A stretch of 64,000 nucleotides of DNA, from assembly GCF_017255185.1 (NCBI RefSeq), contig NZ_JAFKCZ010000001.1, positions 310,001 to 374,000 of the forward strand, written 5' to 3'. Source of the stretch: Parahaliea mediterranea (GTDB lineage Bacteria; Pseudomonadota; Gammaproteobacteria; Pseudomonadales; Halieaceae). Made by a program: the position numbers and the translations under genes. Every line of letters begins with the position of its first letter. The first letter of the stretch is position 1. The notes beneath the pieces were generated by a model. It made no database searches. It was not told the origin of the DNA and saw nothing but the letters and a program-made list of their open reading frames with translations. Shown here one piece after another: positions 5,698 to 57,377 of the stretch.

Positions 5698-8502
5698 ATG
5701 AGCGAGTACAAAGACACCTTGAACCTGCCCCAGACGGCCTTCCCCATGAAGGCCAGCCTGGCCCAGCGCGAACCGCAGCGCCTGAATCAGTGGCAGGAGA
5801 TGGACCTGTACGGCAAGATACGCCGGGCCGCCGCGGGGCGCCCGAAATTCATCCTCCACGACGGCCCGCCCTACGCCAATGGCGAGCTGCATGTGGGCCA
5901 CGGCGTCAATAAGATCCTCAAGGACATTATCGTCAAGTCCCGTGGCCTGGCGGGCTTCGACGCCCCCTATGTGCCCGGTTGGGACTGCCACGGCCTGCCC
6001 ATCGAACTGAACGTCGAGAAAAAGGTGGGCAAGCCCGGTGGCAAGGTAACGCCCGCGCAGTTCCGGCAGAAGTGCCGCGAGTACGCGGCCAAGCAAGTGG
6101 ATGCCCAGCGCGAGGATTTCGTGCGCATGGGGGTGCTGGGCGACTGGGACAATCCTTACCTGACCATGAATTTCCGCTTCGAGGCGGATATCGTGCGCAC
6201 CCTGTCGAGGATCATCGACAACGGTCACCTGCACAAGGGCTTCAAGCCGGTGCACTGGTGCATGGACTGCGGCTCCGCCCTGGCGGAGGCCGAGGTGGAG
6301 TACAAGGACAAGCACTCTCCGGCTATCGACGTGGCCTACGTCGCGCTGGACCCGGCGGCGGTCAACGCCGCCTGCGGCAGCGACTACACCGGCGAGATCG
6401 CGGTGCCGATCTGGACCACCACCCCCTGGACGCTGCCGGCGAGCATGGCCGTCAGCCTGCACCCGGATTTGGATTACGTCCTCATTGAGGGCGATGGCCG
6501 CGCACTGCTGGTGGCCGAGGAACTGGCACCGGCCTGCGCCGAACGCTTCGGCCTGCCGGGGGTGACCGTGCTCGGGCGCTGCAAGGGCGCGGCGCTGGAA
6601 AGGCAGTTGCTGCGGCACCCCTTCCTGGAGCGGCAGGTGCCCGTGGTGCTGGGCGAGCACGTGACCACCGACGCCGGTACCGGCGCGGTGCACACCGCCC
6701 CGGCCCATGGCCAGGACGACTTCGCGGTGGGCCAGCGGTACGGTCTCGAGGTGTACAATCCCGTTGGCGGCAACGGGGTTTACCTGCCGGAAACGCCGCT
6801 TTTCGCCGGCCAGCATGTGATGAAGGCCAATGCCGCGATCGTGGAATTGTTGCGGGACAAGGGCGTCCTGCTGCACCACGAGGACTACGAGCACTCTTAT
6901 CCTCACTGCTGGCGGCACAAGACGCCGATTATCTTCCGCGCCACGCCGCAGTGGTTCGTGAGCATGCAGCAGCAGGGCTTGCTGCAGGGAGCCAAGGCGG
7001 CGGTGGAAAACGTGCGCTGGCTGCCCGAGTGGGGCAAGGCCCGCATTGACGCCATGCTCGCCAACCGCCCCGACTGGTGTATTTCGCGCCAGCGCACCTG
7101 GGGCGTTCCCATCGCCCTGTTTATCCACGTCGAGAGCGGCGAGCTGCACCCGCGTACCGCCGAGCTTATGGAGCAGGTGGCCCAGCGCATCGAGGAACAG
7201 GGCATCGACGCCTGGTTTGACCTCGAGCCCGCGGAATTGCTGGGGGAGGAAGCCGCCGACTACGAAAAAGTCACCGATACCCTGGATGTCTGGTTCGACT
7301 CCGGCGTGACCCACGCCTGCGTGTTGCGCCAGCGCGAGGGCCTGCAAGCCCCCGCGGACCTCTATCTCGAGGGCTCCGACCAGCATCGCGGCTGGTTCCA
7401 GTCCTCCCTGCTGACCGGCATCGGCGCCTACGGCGAGGCCCCCTACAAGAGTGTGCTCACCCACGGATTCACCGTGGACGGGCAGGGCCGCAAAATGTCC
7501 AAGTCGCTGGGCAATATTATCCCGGCGAAGAAGGCAATGAACGACCTGGGCGCCGACATCCTGCGCCTGTGGGTGGCGGGGGCCGATTTCCGCGGCGAAA
7601 TCGCGGTGTCGGACGAGATCTTCAAGCGCACCGGCGACGCCTACCGGCGCATCCGCAACACCGCCCGCTTCCTGCTGTCCAACCTCAACGGCTTCGATCC
7701 CGCGCGGCACGCCCTGCCGACGGGTGAACTGCTGTCTCTGGACCGCTGGGCGATCGACCGCGCGGCGCAGTTGCAGGCGGAGCTCGAGCAGGACTACGAA
7801 AACTACCAGTTCCACCTCATCTTCCAGAAGCTGCACGCTTTCTGCGCCAATGACCTGGGCGGTTTCTACCTGGACGTGATCAAGGACCGCCAGTACACCA
7901 CCCGCGCCGACAGTGTGGCCCGGCGCTCGGCGCAGACCGCCATGTACCATATTGGCGAGGCCCTGGTGCGCTGGGTGGCCCCCATCCTCAGCTTCACCGC
8001 CGAGGAGATCTGGGAGAACCTGCCCGGAGAACGGGGCGAGTCGGTCTTCCTGGCCCAGTGGTACGACCAGCTGGCGTCTCTCGACACCGGTGCGGCCATG
8101 GGCCGTGAATACTGGGAGCGGGTCATGACGGTACGCGCGGCGGTCAACCGCGAGATCGAGGTCCAGCGCGCCGCGGGCGCGGTTCGCGGCTCCCTGGATA
8201 CCGAGGTCACCCTGTATTGCAGCGACGACCTGCTGGCCGACCTGGAAGCCCTGGGCGACGAGCTGCGTTTCGTGTTGATTACCTCCGGTGCCGCGCTGGC
8301 ATCGCTGGCGGATGCCCCGGCCGATGCCGCCGCCACCGAGATCGAGGGCCTGTGCCTGCAGGTGGCTGTGTCGGGGAGCGACAAGTGCGAGCGCTGCTGG
8401 CACCGTCGCCCCGACGTCGGCAGCCACCAGGCGCATCCGACCCTCTGTGGGCGCTGCGTGGAAAACATCGAGGGGCCCGGCGAACAGCGTCGGTTTGCCT
8501 GA
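5698..8502 (+). CDS. ileS: Isoleucyl-tRNA synthetase
   Basis: IleS charges tRNA-Ile with isoleucine and edits mischarged valine. From ATG 5698 the protein has 934 residues and begins [17 protein letters not shown], matching the known N-terminus (MSDYKSTLNLPET in E. coli). An upstream in-frame ATG at 5674 would add eight residues and overlap the ribF stop; I prefer 5698 on homology. The HIGH motif is H65-V-G-H68 and the KMSKS loop is at residues 599-603. The editing domain between them reads [11 protein letters not shown]. The C-terminal zinc ribbon has CERCW and [10 protein letters not shown], placing this enzyme in the common bacterial zinc-bearing class. The next gene, lspA, starts 6 nt later. 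Confidence 0.97.
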
Positions 8503-17823: not shown

Positions 17824-19194
17824 CTAGTCTTCCAGTTTGAGCTTTTGCAGCCGGTAGCGCAGGCTGCGGAAGCTGATGCCCAGCTGCTTGGCGGTGGCGG
17901 TCTTGTTCCAGCGGCACTGTTCCAGCGCCGCGCTGATGATCTGTCGCTCCACGTCCTCGAGGTAGCCCTCCAGATCGCCCATCGCGGCCTCGATATCGGG
18001 GGAAATCGCCGCGGGTCCGGAGCCGCCGGGCGCGCCGGTGCTGCCGCCCGCGAACTGCAGATCGTCGGCGGTGATGCGCGGGCCTTCGCTCAGTGCCCAG
18101 GCCCGTTCCAGGATGTTTTCCAGCTCCCGCACATTGCCGGGAAAGTGGTAGCGCCGCATGGCGTCCAGGGCCGAGGCGTCGAGTGCGGGCGGTTTGTCGC
18201 CCTCGGCGCCGACGCGGCGCAGTACCGCGTCGACCAGTGCCGGCAGGTCCTCCAGGCGATCGCGCAGGGGCGGCACCTGAACATCGATGACGTGAATGCG
18301 GTAGTACAGGTCGTTGCGGAAACGGCCGGCGGCCACCTCGGCGGCGAGATCCTTGTGTGTGGCGCTCAGCAGGCGCACGTCGGTGGGTTGTTCCGCGCTG
18401 CCGCCCACCGGACGTACGGCCTTTTCCTGAATGGCGCGCAGCAGCTTGACCTGCATCGCCAGGGGCAGGTCGGCCACCTCGTCGAGGAACAGAGTCCCGC
18501 CCTGGGCGGCCTGGAACAAGCCCGGCTTGTCCTGGATGGCGCCGGTAAAGCTCCCTTTTACATGGCCGAACAGCTCGCTCTCCATCAATTCGTGGGGGAT
18601 GGCGCCGCAGTTGACGGCGACGAAGGACGCGTTGGCGCGCGGACCGTGGTTGTGGATCAGGCGGGCCACGACTTCCTTGCCGCTGCCGGATTCGCCCTGG
18701 ATATGTACCGGGGCCTGGCTGCGGGCCAGTTTGAGTGCCTGCTGCCTGAGGGTGGCAATGGCCGGGCTGTCGCCTATCAGGCTGGGGCCCCGCGCGGGGT
18801 CCTGGGGTGTGGCGCGTGCCTCCCCGGCGTCGCTGAGCTTGAGCGCGGAACTCACCAGGCTGCGCAGGCGCTCCAGTTCGATGGGTTTGCTGATGAAGTC
18901 GAAGGCACCCGCCTTGAGGGCCGAGATTGCCGTCTCCACGCTGCCGTGGGCGGTGATCATTGCCACCGGCACCTCGGGGAAATCCCGTTGGATGTATTCC
19001 ACCAGGCTGATGCCGTTGCCATCGGGCAGACGCATGTCCGTCAGGCAGAGGTCTGGGTGTTCCTCGCGCATGCGTCGCTCGGCTTCACCCAGGCTGGCGG
19101 CGCTGCAGGTGTTGAGCCCCATGCGGCTGAGGGTGATGTCCAGCAGCTCTCGGATGTCGGGTTCGTCGTCGACGATCAATACGGTCTGGGTCAT
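17824..19194 (-). CDS. pilR: Sigma-54 dependent response regulator PilR
   Basis: PilR activates pilin transcription with RpoN when phosphorylated by PilS. The 456-residue chain has a receiver domain (phospho-acceptor D53 in LTDMRLPDGNG, lysine in FISKPIELE), then an AAA+ domain with Walker A GESGSGKE, Walker B GGTLFLDEVADL and the sigma-54 contact loop GSFTGA, the variant also known from Pseudomonas PilR. The C-terminal Fis-type helix-turn-helix reads CRWNKTATAKQLGISFRSLR. It starts 11 nt after pilS ends, so the two form one operon. Two dyads with CTGTC half-sites before the LamG/PKD gene at 41 kb resemble described PilR sites and are possible targets. Confidence 0.96.
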   Translation of the reverse strand: MTQTVLIVDDEPDIRELLDITLSRMGLNTCSAASLGEAERRMREEHPDLCLTDMRLPDGNGISLVEYIQRDFPEVPVAMITAHGSVETAISALKAGAFDFISKPIELERLRSLVSSALKLSDAGEARATPQDPARGPSLIGDSPAIATLRQQALKLARSQAPVHIQGESGSGKEVVARLIHNHGPRANASFVAVNCGAIPHELMESELFGHVKGSFTGAIQDKPGLFQAAQGGTLFLDEVADLPLAMQVKLLRAIQEKAVRPVGGSAEQPTDVRLLSATHKDLAAEVAAGRFRNDLYYRIHVIDVQVPPLRDRLEDLPALVDAVLRRVGAEGDKPPALDASALDAMRRYHFPGNVRELENILERAWALSEGPRITADDLQFAGGSTGAPGGSGPAAISPDIEAAMGDLEGYLEDVERQIISAALEQCRWNKTATAKQLGISFRSLRYRLQKLKLED

Positions 19195-19205
19195 ATGCGG
19201 CTAGT

Positions 19206-20858
19206 CTAAAGTGCGCGCTTGTTCAGCGCCAGGCGGAAGCAGCTCTCGCCCTTGTTCGTGGGGGCGTAACGCAGGGAGGCGTTGTTGATCTCGCAAAGCT
19301 CCTGGCACAGGTACAGCCCCATCCCGCTGCCGGATTCCACGGTGGTGTAAAAGGGCTCGAACAGCTTGTTCTGGTCCTGGGGCGGTACCCCGGCGCCGTA
19401 GTCGATGACATCGATCAGGCACTGGCTGGACTGGAAGTCCAGCGCCACCTCGATGCGCGCTCGCTCGTGACCGGTTGCCAGCTTGCTGTGGCGCAGGGCG
19501 TTGTCGAGCAGGTTGCCAAGCACCCGGCGCAGGTTTTCCGGGTCGAACTCCACCAGCAGGTCGCGGTAGCTGCAGTCCACGGTGATGTCGGCGGGGCGGT
19601 TGAGGGTGTCGAGGTAATCGCCGACAAACTTCGCCAACCACTCGGCCAATAGCAGGTACTCCGGTTTCGGGGGTTCGCGGCGGGAGATCTGCATCACGCT
19701 CTCGACGATCTGGTTCACCCGCGCGCTGTGTTCCTGGATGATCTCCGCCAGGCGGCGGTCCGGGGCTTGCAGGTCGGGGGATTCCTGCAGCAGTTGCGCG
19801 GCGTGGCTGATGGCTCCCAGGGGGTTGCGAATTTCGTGGGCGATACTGGCGGTGAGCCGGCCCAGGGATGTGAGCTTAAGGGCCTGGGCGTACTGGGTAA
19901 CGGGGGTGTAGTCCTCCACGAACACCAGCGCCTCGCCCTGGCTGCCGGGTTGCAGTTCGCGGAAGTTGGCGATCACCGGGGGCGCGCCCTCCTGCACGGA
20001 AAAGGGCTGTGCCCGGTGCAGGCCGCTGTCGCGCCAGTGTTCGTACTGGTACGCCAGTTCCTCGCTGTATTCCGCCAGTTGCCGCCCCTGTTCCACGGTG
20101 AGGGGGCGTTCCGGCGCCAGCAGTCCGGTGGCGGCCTTGTTCATCACCCGTACCCGACCCTCGCTGGATACCAGCAGGATGCCGGTCTGCATATGCTGCA
20201 CAATCTGCTCGTTGAGGCGTTGCAGGTTGTACAGGTCGCTGGCCCGGGTCCGCGCCAGCTCCTCGGCGCGTCCCAGGCGGTTGGCGATGGCCTGTACCAT
20301 CAGCGACACGCCGAACAGCAGCAGGCCGAGCAGGCCCGCGGGGAACAAGGCATTGATGGCGAGCTTGTGGACCACCACCAGGCGCGCGGTGTCCAGCAGG
20401 ATGGCCAGTACGCTCAACGCCGCCACCAGGGTCGCCAGGGTTCGGTTGGTTATCATCACCGCGCTGGCCGCGACCGTGATCACCAGTAGAATGGGCAGGC
20501 CGCTCACCATGCCGCCGCTGGCGTCGGCCAGCAGGGTGATGGCGGCGATATCCACCAGGAAAACCAGGAACAGGTAGCGGTGGTTCTGGTGCCAGTTGGC
20601 CGACAGAGAGCCCATCAGGACAACGCTGGTGGCGACATAGGCGATGGCCACGCCAATGTACAGCGGCGGGTTCAGCCCGCCCACCAGCTGCCGGGTATTG
20701 GGGCTGACCAGCATGATCAGCAACACCACCGACAGCAGTGAGCGGTAGGCCACGTAGATGCGGAACAGGGTGGTGTTCTGCTTGCTGCTACTGGTGGTGA
20801 CGGGGTTGGTCAGTATCGAAGGCCGGTTCAAAGTCGCCCTGCTGTCGTTGTATGCCAC
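19206..20858 (-). CDS. pilS: Sensor histidine kinase PilS
   Basis: PilS is the membrane sensor partner of PilR. From GTG 20858 it has 550 residues. About six hydrophobic segments occupy residues 35-190. A PAS-like region follows (about 215-320), then the dimerisation/H-box SIAHEIRNPLGAISHAA with phospho-accepting H341, the N-box NLLDNALRHS, and the ATP lid with DYGAGVPP and GSGMGLYLC. Family length and topology match P. aeruginosa PilS, which monitors pilin in the membrane. The exact start could be up to about 30 codons later, because the first residues (rich in Ser, Thr and Asn) are not conserved. It is transcribed with pilR and away from nadE. Confidence 0.94.
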   Translation of the reverse strand: MAYNDSRATLNRPSILTNPVTTSSSKQNTTLFRIYVAYRSLLSVVLLIMLVSPNTRQLVGGLNPPLYIGVAIAYVATSVVLMGSLSANWHQNHRYLFLVFLVDIAAITLLADASGGMVSGLPILLVITVAASAVMITNRTLATLVAALSVLAILLDTARLVVVHKLAINALFPAGLLGLLLFGVSLMVQAIANRLGRAEELARTRASDLYNLQRLNEQIVQHMQTGILLVSSEGRVRVMNKAATGLLAPERPLTVEQGRQLAEYSEELAYQYEHWRDSGLHRAQPFSVQEGAPPVIANFRELQPGSQGEALVFVEDYTPVTQYAQALKLTSLGRLTASIAHEIRNPLGAISHAAQLLQESPDLQAPDRRLAEIIQEHSARVNQIVESVMQISRREPPKPEYLLLAEWLAKFVGDYLDTLNRPADITVDCSYRDLLVEFDPENLRRVLGNLLDNALRHSKLATGHERARIEVALDFQSSQCLIDVIDYGAGVPPQDQNKLFEPFYTTVESGSGMGLYLCQELCEINNASLRYAPTNKGESCFRLALNKRAL

Positions 20859-29154: not shown

Positions 29155-29369
29155 AGCCCGGTCTTACAGGTGGCAACGGCTAACGTTGAGTACCCTCAAC
29201 CCCTGGCCCACTGCCGCGATGCGATGATTCGCGCCAGCTGCCTGTGAGTCCCGTAACCAGCCAGAGCCGCATGGGCCGGGCTGGGGGCCAGATACTGCGC
29301 TACCCCGCAGGGCGACCGATACACGGGTTCGTGATCGCTTTCCCCTTCCTCGCCAGCCATGGCGAGCGT

Positions 29370-29410
29370 GGAAAGAGCCTTTGAGGATAGCCTCTCCGTG
29401 CGCTCTTTCC
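29370..29410 (+). other. Hairpin in the ilvI upstream region
   Basis: GGAAAGAGC at 29370-29378 pairs with GCTCTTTCC at 29402-29410, and inside it GAGG pairs with CCTC around ATAG. A further short stem (CCGG, loop CAATG, CCGG) follows near 29440. The 615-nt gap between DUF4124 and ilvI holds no recognised gene, and these hairpins are the only clear structure. Close to the ilvI ribosome site, AACGC and GCGTT with a short T-run near 29598-29616 could act as a weak attenuator. Confidence 0.45.
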
Positions 29411-40319: not shown

Positions 40320-40407
40320 GCTGTCTGGATTTTGCGACAGCGTAACTGCCTGATTTGCGGGGTTTATGGACGAGGCGAGGGTTTTGCTGTCGCCATAAGC
40401 AGACAGC
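40320..40407 (+). promoter_or_regulatory. Two identical dyads GCTGTC-N10-GACAGC, candidate enhancer sites
   Basis: The 22-nt dyad GCTGTC, ten bases, GACAGC occurs at 40320-40341 and again at 40386-40407, with centres 66 nt apart. They sit 85-190 nt upstream of a sigma-54 type promoter (40492-40507), the usual place for activator sites of RpoN enhancer-binding proteins. An AT-rich stretch between (about 40455-40490) could take IHF. The half-site CTGTC equals, as far as I recall, the core described for PilR sites upstream of pilA. The same bases could also fold into a long nested hairpin, so a role as RNA structure after the CBS gene is the alternative. Confidence 0.6.
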
Positions 40408-40491
40408 TTTTGTTGATTTTCACGCAGAGCGCCTCGCGTTCGCACAGCCTTTTTTTCGTAAGTAGCTGATATAACTAAATATAAATAAGCA

Positions 40492-40507
40492 TGGCGCGGT
40501 TTATGCT
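40492..40507 (+). promoter_or_regulatory. Sigma-54 type -24/-12 promoter of the LamG/PKD gene
   Basis: TGGCGCG, four bases, ATGCT keeps the invariant GG and GC with exactly ten bases between, and matches TGGCACG-N4-TTGCT at 10 of 12 positions. It lies 539 nt upstream of the LamG/PKD start codon, leaving a long leader. Matches of this quality occur a few times by chance in 64 kb; the placement after the twin dyads is what supports it. Confidence 0.55.
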
Positions 40508-40762
40508 AAAGGTGATTCTGTTGTCCGCTCGCCCGGTGAAGAATGGCTGTGCGCAAGTCACGACCAGGCAGTTTCACCGGCTGAGGGCCAATCGGTTTAC
40601 GTTTTCTGGGCTTTTCTCAAGAAATTCCTATGAGGAATGAAAAGTTCGATATTAACTTTCGTTTACGGAATGCCTGAGCGAAGGCCTGGCCGCGATACTT
40701 CCAGTTTTCTTGCGTATGAAAATCACCGCAGAGTCTGCAGTGGACAGGTTTGTAACAGGCAG

Positions 40763-40815
40763 CACGGTCATGGGCGAAGCAACCCGGAAGTCGGGATGCA
40801 ACGCCGAAAGCCGTG
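40763..40815 (+). other. Imperfect 53-nt hairpin in the leader of the LamG/PKD gene
   Basis: Arms pair in order: CACGG/CCGTG, GGCG/CGCC, GCA/TGC and CCCG/CGGG around a GAAGT loop, with symmetric AA/AA and A/A mismatches. More small stems follow up to the gene: CGCC-TCG-GGCG, GCGTAG/CTACGC near 40930 and CTGTTC-GCGA-GAACAG near 41000. The GGC..GCAA..stem-loop..GCAA..GCC pattern is vaguely like the c-di-GMP-I riboswitch, but the conserved core is not all there, so it is called only as a structured leader. No protein gene is seen in 40141-41045. Confidence 0.45.
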
Positions 40816-41045
40816 ATAGTTCGCCTCGGGCGTTGACGTCGAAAACGTACCCGGCAGTGCCGGAATCGGTCGGCGAAGGTCCGAGTCGCCACCGGTACTC
40901 GCAAGCCCCCGCTTGTCCTGGGCGCGTAGCCTGTCTACGCTCAAGGGCAGTCTGGTTTTTTGGGCTTGTGGGTTTCGCTGGCGTCAAAGTACCCAAACAC
41001 TGTTCGCGAGAACAGCTCCTAATCCCCATCATCCAAGGCTGCAAA

Positions 41046-44000
41046 ATGTTTCAACTTTTTCTGGTGTTGTTCGGCTTCACGCTGCTGCAAGCATCAAATG
41101 CCAACGCCGCAGATTTGACGCTCGACTGGGACGAAGTCGCTGATCCCACCGTTGATCACTACCAGGTAGCCTGGGGCTACAGCAGCGGTAACTATGCCAA
41201 TTTTAGAGATGGCAATACGCCTCCGCTGACCCTGGAGTCGCTTGCTGAAAAGCAGACCTACTATATTGCCGTCAGGGCATGCACGGCGGACAAGCAGAGC
41301 TGTAGTGACTATTCGAACGAGATAATCGTCGATACGACGGGAGAAGACGCGGGCGAGTCCCTCGGCGATGCCGTGCTGACATACTCTTTTGATGAGGGCC
41401 ATGGCTCGGTGGTAAGGGACGAGAGTGGCAATGGTTACGACGGCCGACTGATCGGTAATCCCGCGTTCGAGAAGGTATCGGAAACCGGGGAAGGCTATGC
41501 GCTGCGTTTCGATGGCGTCGATGACTCTGTCGATGTGGGGTCGCTGGATCTGCGGGGGAATGAAATGACCCTGGCGGCCTGGTTCAAGGCCGATACCTTT
41601 CCTGGTGACTATCGCGATCCGAGGATTATATCGAAGGCCTCGGGCGTGGCTGACAACGATCACATCTTTATGCTGGGTACTATCCGTTCGGGTGACCGAA
41701 CCCGGCTGCGTGGCCGTGTCAGGGTAGGCGGACGAACCACCACACTGATCGCGAGCAGTGGCGATATCGGTGCGGGCAACTGGCATCATGCGGCGCTAAC
41801 CTACAATGGAGCGTCGCTTCGACTCTATCTGGACGGACAGGTTGTCGGCAGCACGGCCCTGTCTGGCACTATCGATACCGATGCATCCATGCCTGTCGCG
41901 ATCGGCAGTCAACCGCTTGGAAACACCCGCTGGTTTGACGGACTCATCGACGGCGTACATATTTTACGGCGCGGTCTCGATGCCGCCGCAATTGCCCAGC
42001 TGGCTTCCGAATTCGGCAATTCAGGAGATCCCGATGATTCGGGTGACCCCGAGCCCGAGCCCGAGCCCGACCCCGAGCCGGAACCGGAACCCGAGCCGGA
42101 ACCCGAGCCGGAACCCGAGCCGGAACCGGAACCGACTGCGCCGACGGCCGAGTTTGGCGCCAATGTAACCGCGGGCCAAGTGCCGCTGCAGGTAAGTTTC
42201 GACAACACATCTACAGATGCAGACTCGTTCCTATGGGATTTTGGCGACGGCAGCGAGAGTACGGCGGCTTCGCCCACTCACACCTATACCCGCCCCGGCG
42301 TGTATTCGGTCAGCCTGTCCGCTACCGGTAAAGGCGGTACCGCGGTGAATTTCAAGGGGAGCTACATTACCGCTCTCTCCCCGGAACTGGACGCCGCGTT
42401 CAGTGCAAGTGTGACCCGCGGGCAGGCGCCATTGAAGGTGCGGTTTACGTCCACTTCCTCGGGTGATATTGACGCCTTCCAGTGGAGCTTTGGCGACGGC
42501 GGCAGCGGCGCCGGGGCCAATCCGGAGTATGTATACGAGAAACCCGGCACCTACAGTGTATCGCTCACGGTCTCGGGCCCGGATGGATCGGATTCGGTGG
42601 AAAAGGCACAACTCATTCAGGTGACGGAAGCCGATGAAGAAAGCGCTGGACTCCAACTGGAAGCGGGGGAGATCCGGGTGAATCATCGCTGGAAGACGAT
42701 CAAGTTCCGCGAGACATACAAGAACCCGATTGTGCTGGTCGGGCCGCTGAGTCTTGAGGATGCCAGCCCGGCCGTTGTGCAGGTCAAAAATGTCACCAAT
42801 GACGGTTTCACCGTGCGAGTGCGGGAATGGGACTATCTTGGACATGTCTGGCATCGTTTCGAAAAAGCCGGTTATATCGTCGTTGAGGCTGGGCGTCACC
42901 AATTGCCGAATGGCGGCTGGATAGAGGCAGGCAGTGTGGATGTCGACTCCTCCACACCTGCCTACCCGGTCAGTTTTGAAGGTGTGTTCCCTGTGCCCCC
43001 CGTTATCTTGAGCACGATTGCAAGTAACAACGACCCCAGCGGGACAGCGGTTACCACGCGAATCAACAATGTCGATGACTACGGTTTTGAGATCGGTCTG
43101 CAAAAAGAGCAGGCTCTGCCCCAGGTTCATGCCAAGGAAACGATCAACTACCTCGCCTGGCAGCGCTCGAAAGGCGTCGTAAACGGCTATGAATACACCG
43201 CCGACCACACCGCAAAGCGGGTGACGGAGCGAGGCTACAAGATAGCGTTTTCCGACGCGCCGGAGGAACCGCCCGTCTTCTTGTCAGACATGCAAACCAT
43301 GAATGGTGGCGATACAGCCAACCTTCGCTGGCATTCCAAAAGCCAAGCCTCGGTGACAGTTCTGGTGGATGAAGAGCAGTCCCTTGATCGGGAGACCAGT
43401 CACGTCAAGGAGACGGTTGGCTTTCTCACCCTGTCTGAATCATCTGCCGAAGATTCGACGGATGACGATGACAAACCGGCGGAAAAAGCCGCTCTTCTGT
43501 TGGTCTATACTTTCGATGACGGTAGTGGCTCGAAGGTCCAGGACATGAGCTCTCAAGGCAATGATGGCCTGCTGAACGGTGGCCCGGAATATGAGTGGAG
43601 CTATACAGCACCGGCCGGGTATGCGCTTGATCTCGATGGCGTTGATGATTATGTCGACGCCGGCAGTGTCGATGTGTCGGGGGGTGGCCTGACCATGGCG
43701 GCATGGTTCAAGGCTGAAAGTTTCCCTGGAAGTTCGCGCGACCCCCGGCTGATCTCAAAGTCCTCTGGCACGGCCGACAACGAACATATTTTCATGTTGA
43801 GTACGATTGCGGTCGGCGGTGATACGCGCCTGCGCGCTAGGGTTCGTGTCGGTGGAAAAACCACGACGCTTATAGCCAGCAAGGGAAATCTCGAAACTGG
43901 CGTCTGGTACCACGCCGCGGCGACTTACGATGGCGCGACGCTGCGCCTGTATCTGGACGGAGCGGAGGTGGGACAGGTCGGCCTCTCGGGCAGCGTGGAT

Positions 44001-44150
44001 CGCGATCCAAGCATGGGCTTGGCGATTGGAAGTCAGCCCCATGGCGCGGCGCGATGGTTTGACGGCTTGATAGACGACGTTCGCATCCTTGACGGCGGCC
44101 TGGACAGCAGTGAGGTGGCTGATCTGGCGAAGCCTGTCGAAACGAAATAG
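41046..44150 (+). CDS. Secreted multidomain LamG / PKD / lectin-like surface protein
   Basis: From ATG 41046 (AAGG site upstream) the protein has 1034 residues. Domains in order: signal peptide 1-21 (ending NANA), fibronectin III-like 22-98, LamG 112-318 (YSFDEGHGSVVRDESGNGYD, AAWFKADTFPGDYRDPR), a Pro-Glu repeat linker 335-362, two PKD domains 368-528 (FLWDFGDGSES; FQWSFGDGGSG), two H-type-lectin-like segments 535-795 (FRETYKNPIVLVG, VTNDGFTVRVREWDYL) and a second LamG 815-1028. All parts bind glycans or form stalks in known proteins, so a matrix adhesin is likely. No PEP-CTERM or LPXTG tail is seen. The open frame extends back to 40710 but that part has no signal. The LamG type equals that of the giant protein at 57.6 kb. 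Confidence 0.88.
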   Translation: MFQLFLVLFGFTLLQASNANAADLTLDWDEVADPTVDHYQVAWGYSSGNYANFRDGNTPPLTLESLAEKQTYYIAVRACTADKQSCSDYSNEIIVDTTGEDAGESLGDAVLTYSFDEGHGSVVRDESGNGYDGRLIGNPAFEKVSETGEGYALRFDGVDDSVDVGSLDLRGNEMTLAAWFKADTFPGDYRDPRIISKASGVADNDHIFMLGTIRSGDRTRLRGRVRVGGRTTTLIASSGDIGAGNWHHAALTYNGASLRLYLDGQVVGSTALSGTIDTDASMPVAIGSQPLGNTRWFDGLIDGVHILRRGLDAAAIAQLASEFGNSGDPDDSGDPEPEPEPDPEPEPEPEPEPEPEPEPEPEPTAPTAEFGANVTAGQVPLQVSFDNTSTDADSFLWDFGDGSESTAASPTHTYTRPGVYSVSLSATGKGGTAVNFKGSYITALSPELDAAFSASVTRGQAPLKVRFTSTSSGDIDAFQWSFGDGGSGAGANPEYVYEKPGTYSVSLTVSGPDGSDSVEKAQLIQVTEADEESAGLQLEAGEIRVNHRWKTIKFRETYKNPIVLVGPLSLEDASPAVVQVKNVTNDGFTVRVREWDYLGHVWHRFEKAGYIVVEAGRHQLPNGGWIEAGSVDVDSSTPAYPVSFEGVFPVPPVILSTIASNNDPSGTAVTTRINNVDDYGFEIGLQKEQALPQVHAKETINYLAWQRSKGVVNGYEYTADHTAKRVTERGYKIAFSDAPEEPPVFLSDMQTMNGGDTANLRWHSKSQASVTVLVDEEQSLDRETSHVKETVGFLTLSESSAEDSTDDDDKPAEKAALLLVYTFDDGSGSKVQDMSSQGNDGLLNGGPEYEWSYTAPAGYALDLDGVDDYVDAGSVDVSGGGLTMAAWFKAESFPGSSRDPRLISKSSGTADNEHIFMLSTIAVGGDTRLRARVRVGGKTTTLIASKGNLETGVWYHAAATYDGATLRLYLDGAEVGQVGLSGSVDRDPSMGLAIGSQPHGAARWFDGLIDDVRILDGGLDSSEVADLAKPVETK

Positions 44151-57361: not shown

Positions 57362-57377
57362 TGGCGCGTTATTTGCA
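57362..57377 (+). promoter_or_regulatory. Sigma-54 type -24/-12 promoter of the giant LamG gene
   Basis: TGGCGCG, four bases, TTGCA matches TGGCACG-N4-TTGCA with one mismatch, and GG-N10-GC is exact. It lies 189 nt upstream of the gene. The TGGCGCG half is identical to that before the other LamG protein. The GCTGTC dyads are not present in this 428-nt divergent gap (57138-57565); another dyad, ACTTCG-N10-CGAAGT near 57183-57204, is. No gene is seen in the gap. Confidence 0.6.

Follow-up and report, generated by a model that had tools for sequence, protein, structure and literature searches.

Two exact GCTGTC-N10-GACAGC dyads stand ahead of a sigma-54 promoter in the stretch of Parahaliea mediterranea DNA analyzed here (64,000 nucleotides in all, hereafter the window, with positions counted from its first letter). 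Judging from the sequence, these dyads are very probably upstream activating sites of GlrR (QseF), from which RpoN-dependent transcription would be directed toward a gene encoding a LamG/PKD surface protein, with IHF probably aiding. The regulator is of a type already known, and the LamG gene is a new predicted target for it. What is known of GlrKR (QseEF) comes mostly from enterics, in which the small RNA GlmY and sigma-E are under its control. The initial annotation of this DNA had proposed PilR as the protein that binds the dyads; the regulator of interest for the LamG gene now shifts from pilR to glrR.

Paired dyads ahead of a sigma-54 promoter

The distal dyad occupies positions 40320 to 40341 (CTGTC-N10-GACAG core at 40321-40340) and the proximal dyad positions 40386 to 40407 (core at 40387-40406), with no strand assigned to either and a start-to-start spacing of 66 nt. 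Both match GCTGTC-N10-GACAGC exactly, as the initial annotation had reported when it described two dyads with identical arms and N10 spacing 66 nt apart, and no other exact match occurs in the 64-kb window, where 15 sites with up to two mismatches were found (4.4 expected). The whole-genome search that the annotation had suggested returned four exact dyads in 5.03 Mb, the same number as the reversed control, so single dyads occur at chance level. According to their translations, the other two lie within genes, one in a tricorn-protease-like open reading frame and the other in a FimV-like one. The probability of finding any two exact dyads less than 100 nt apart at this genomic density was calculated as ~3e-4, in agreement with the earlier statement that such a chance pair is very unlikely. 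The unusual feature is the pairing and the intergenic position ahead of a sigma-54 site, not the single dyads. The same picture emerged when exact cores were tallied across the genome (a count of exact CTGTC-N10-GACAG matches, not an enumeration by matrix): among 11 cores, only for the two in the window does a sigma-54 match lie less than about 250 nt away.

A dyad matrix was trained on 66 dyads from other genomes, giving the symmetrised consensus CTGTCGCC-N4-GGCGACAG, in which the inner GCC/GGC is conserved even though the search did not impose it. With this matrix, the proximal dyad (22.8) and the distal dyad (19.6) were the best and second-best sites in the window, and the next site outside the dyads scored 10.4.

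The promoter, TGGCGCGGTTTATGCT at 40492-40507 on the plus strand, matches the -24/-12 consensus. Its distance is 85 nt from the proximal dyad core, 84 nt from the whole proximal dyad, and 172 nt from the first position of the distal dyad. The range of about 85-190 nt given previously was thus approximately right, and the dyad pair together with this site supports the earlier reading, an RpoN enhancer region upstream of the gene for a LamG/PKD surface protein. Between the dyads lies an IHF-like site, AATCAGGCAGTTA (40343-40355, minus strand), which matches WATCAANNNNTTR at 8 of 9 positions; this is a loose consensus, and the score was reached by 0.5% of shuffled spacers.

A functionless chance pair is extremely improbable as an explanation of these sites. 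Single dyads are, it is true, no commoner here than chance predicts, but the pairing, the 66-nt register, the in-phase sigma-54 site, and the recurrence of the same architecture at ~34 other loci, described below, all speak against it.

GlrR and twin dyads in this and other genomes

The published upstream activating site of QseF/GlrR is TGTC-N10-GACA (alternatively TGT-N12-ACA), and its use is assisted by IHF (PMC8745638, PMC6075780); the window dyads fit this site exactly. The P. mediterranea genome encodes one RpoN and, on a contig other than that of the window, a GlrR (L018) that scores 660 bits against NCBIfam NF011695, with the next family at 393. As 660 bits lies below the curated equivalog cut-off of 763, orthology to enterobacterial GlrR is taken from the margin over the other families. 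Ahead of glrR are genes for a GlrK-like kinase and a QseG-like lipoprotein, assigned by gene order and sequence inspection only, in the order qseE-qseG-qseF. A second, weaker element lies directly behind this glrR (L160:7886-8059), consisting of a TGTC-N10-GACA at 7886-7903 and, 64 nt on, a degenerate TGTC-N10-GACG. A sigma-54 site, TGGCACGGCTTTCGCT at L160:8044, follows ahead of a FeeM-like acyltransferase gene; it is 75 nt from the degenerate partner and hence in phase. A similar gene for an acyltransferase in a relative from a different genus (G443, L172) has an exact twin dyad in front of it.

To find other twin dyads, 84,980 genomes were scanned for two CTGTC-N10-GACAG cores separated by 26-56 nt. 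The scan matched 91 stretches, some of them tandem repeats; among the non-repetitive ones, the span was mostly 83-89 nt (66-96 nt allowed), compared with 86 nt in the window. From these, ~34 non-repetitive loci were chosen by inspection for analysis, a number that is a lower bound because an exact-match scan misses degenerate twins such as the one behind the P. mediterranea glrR. The loci are mostly beta- and gammaproteobacterial, with a dyad register of 63-69 nt like that of the window. A sigma-54 site (score ≥14.4) was found within 250 nt in 31 of 34 loci (32 of 35 when the window is included); at positions drawn at random from this DNA, the figure was 10%. Distances from dyad to promoter cluster at ~64, 74, 84, and 94 nt, a periodicity near 10.5 bp (Rayleigh p ~2e-8), and the 85 nt seen in the window is offset in phase by 0.7 bp from the mean of the 31 other loci, calculated with the window left out. 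IHF-like sites, again by a loose consensus match, do not occur at every locus; the mean best match in the spacers between dyads was 7.6 of 9, compared with 6.1 of 9 in shuffled spacers, and the register of the window site recurs at three loci (L073, L095, and L099).

At least 21 of the 34 loci encode a protein whose closest counterpart among the P. mediterranea enhancer-binding proteins is GlrR, mostly at 54-62% identity, with the next best P. mediterranea protein at 47% or less. The glrR-like gene abuts the dyads in 16 loci, and about one-third of the twin-dyad loci have no glrR in the surrounding DNA examined. The glrR genes adjoining dyads share with the P. mediterranea GlrR a recognition helix, NRT[DE]FY[KR]L[LM], that is unlike that of the organism's own PilR. 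A built-in positive control was provided by an Erwinia locus, whose twin dyad and sigma-54 site stand ahead of the small-RNA gene glmZ (Rfam, 129.5 bits); the scan was blind to glmZ, which is a known kind of GlrR target.

The window element closely resembles the glmY and glmZ promoters of Enterobacteriaceae, which likewise combine an array of TGTC-N10-GACA sites, a downstream -24/-12 promoter, and a genome that encodes GlrK-QseG-GlrR. However, the enteric promoters have three sites and serve small-RNA genes next to qseEGF, whereas in the window two sites precede the gene of a large surface protein, far away from glrR. Also close are the glrR-linked twin dyads of Burkholderiales and other proteobacteria (L069, L076, L086, L127, and others), which share the 63-69 nt register, the phased sigma-54 promoter, and often an IHF-like site, although these elements drive genes for opgG/MdoG, BON, EF-hand, or glycine-zipper proteins adjoining glrR. 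Across the other loci, the targets include MdoG (opgG), BON, EF-hand, glycine-zipper, and mannose-1-phosphate guanylyltransferase-like proteins and are mostly envelope proteins. In no other genome found by the scan does a LamG gene lie behind a twin-dyad element, so the target in the window is so far unique. Among open-licence papers, we found no published account of the twin-dyad architecture outside enterics.

Taken with the known biology of the system, these observations suggest the following sequence of events. Presumably in response to the signal of GlrK-QseG, the state of the envelope, GlrK would phosphorylate GlrR, the sigma-54 enhancer-binding response regulator of this envelope-sensing system, and dimers of phosphorylated GlrR would occupy both dyads. 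Bending of the intervening DNA, probably by IHF, would favor a GlrR oligomer on one face of the helix. Located some eight turns upstream of position 40492, this oligomer would touch RNA polymerase-sigma54 there and cause promoter opening. The transcript would pass through a leader of ~530 nt into the LamG/PKD surface-protein gene at 41046. More broadly, the conserved architecture suggests a general beta- and gammaproteobacterial envelope regulon that includes periplasmic glucan synthesis, BON and EF-hand periplasmic proteins, and, here, a LamG/PKD surface protein. Further members could be sought as pairs of CTGTCGCC-N4-GGCGACAG 63-69 nt apart and ~64, 74, 84, or 94 nt before a -24/-12 element.

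PilR and other enhancer-binding proteins

Binding of the dyads by PilR, as initially proposed, would tie the LamG protein to pilus sensing. The pilS-pilR genes do lie inside the window (17824-20858), and the CTGTC half-site is akin to the TGTC-type elements of the PilR literature; at pilA, too, TGTC-containing elements lie upstream of a sigma-54 promoter. However, PilR sites at pilA do not take the form of CTGTC-N10-GACAG dyads, and the published hallmark of PilR, TGT-N11-AGA plus GTCT elements (PMC6058289), differs from the window dyads. The initial annotation would have counted absence of the dyad before pilA and all other sigma-54 genes as a refutation, and for pilA this absence was observed. 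At the pilA promoter of P. mediterranea (L162/L068), the sigma-54 site, TGGCATTACCTTTGCT at L162:2356-2371, is a good one, but no dyad lies upstream of it; the best motif score there is -2.4, whereas the window dyads score 19.6 and 22.8. In addition, the recognition helix of PilR, SFRSLRYRLQKL, is unlike that of the dyad-linked glrR genes, and twin dyads in other genomes abut glrR rather than pilR. PilR is therefore a very improbable binder of the window dyads. Several TGTCA/TGACA elements upstream of the TGGCATTACCTTTGCT site are candidates for the true PilR sites at pilA.

A second enhancer-binding protein, VpsR-like or PrsR-like, is encoded on the minus strand where the polysaccharide cluster bordered by the LamG gene ends (G000:C1:391673-393082, equivalent to L065:5670-7103), and by binding the dyads it could co-regulate the LamG protein and the polysaccharide. 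It had been the first candidate because of this position, within the same 40-kb neighborhood as the LamG gene. Its own upstream region contains a sigma-54-like site, TGGCCTGTTTATTGCT, together with a CTGTC-N25-GACAG pair, and related regulators such as BerB govern exopolysaccharide via RpoN. Yet the N10 dyad is absent from its presumed promoters, with matrix scores below zero before 57362 and 83380, and twin dyads elsewhere go with glrR. The candidate was set aside on account of its dyad-free promoters, and we regard its binding to the window dyads as distinctly unlikely. A search of 58 genomes at 1e-100 found no close relatives of this protein.

PrsR, the PEP-CTERM response regulator, is also encoded in this genome (712 bits) and governs surface proteins via sigma-54 promoters, with an enhancer site and a sigma-54 promoter before genes for secreted proteins (PMC1569441), a layout like that of the window. 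Its described motif, however, is a 17-mer ending in TTTACA, unlike the dyad, and the proteins that it governs carry a PEP-CTERM tail, which is absent from the translation of the gene at 41046. PrsR was rejected as the binder because the dyads themselves differ from this motif, and its involvement here is scarcely credible.

The LamG gene, its leader, and its surroundings

The proposed target of GlrR (41046-44150, plus strand) encodes a protein of 1,034 amino acids that is predicted to be secreted and contains an fn3-like domain, two LamG-like domains (Laminin_G_3), two PKD domains, and an H-type-lectin-like domain. It sits at the border of a ~40-kb polysaccharide cluster made up of glycosyltransferase, methyltransferase, chain-length, and tyrosine-kinase-like genes. 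A search for orthologues in 58 genomes returned domain-level matches only. The protein may be adhesive, and its predicted control by GlrR suggests that P. mediterranea regulates a sticky surface protein in response to envelope stress.

The predicted leader, with its start placed by the -12 element, extends over ~530 nt (40518-41045, plus strand). This is unusually long, and the LamG gene may therefore not be the sole, or the real, product of the promoter. The last 347 nt of the leader (40700-41046) fold better than dinucleotide shuffles (z -3.4), and a terminator-like stem at 40931-40950 is followed by T-rich DNA. It is conceivable, if unlikely, that this structured leader of the GlrR-controlled transcript includes a regulatory RNA, which would be a lineage-specific equivalent of GlmY/GlmZ made alongside or instead of the LamG protein; if so, GlrR would govern an RNA as well as a matrix protein from one promoter. 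An Rfam search of the leader gave no match, and no DNA match to it was found in 37 related genomes. A cyclic-di-GMP or other riboswitch, suspected from a look at the sequence, was dropped for want of an Rfam match.

Farther along, a perfect sigma-54-like site, TGGCGCGTTATTTGCA, was seen at 57362-57377 of the window on the plus strand, with a divergent one, TGGCCTGCATCTTGCA, at 57231-57216 on the minus strand. These two sites lie between a second LamG open reading frame of 3,103 amino acids (57566-66877, counted from the window start) and the polysaccharide genes on the minus strand. GlrR dyads are absent there, so another enhancer-binding protein probably acts at these sites. Elsewhere in the window, at 29161-29370, lies an ilvB-OMG cis-regulatory RNA (RF02919, 127.7 bits).
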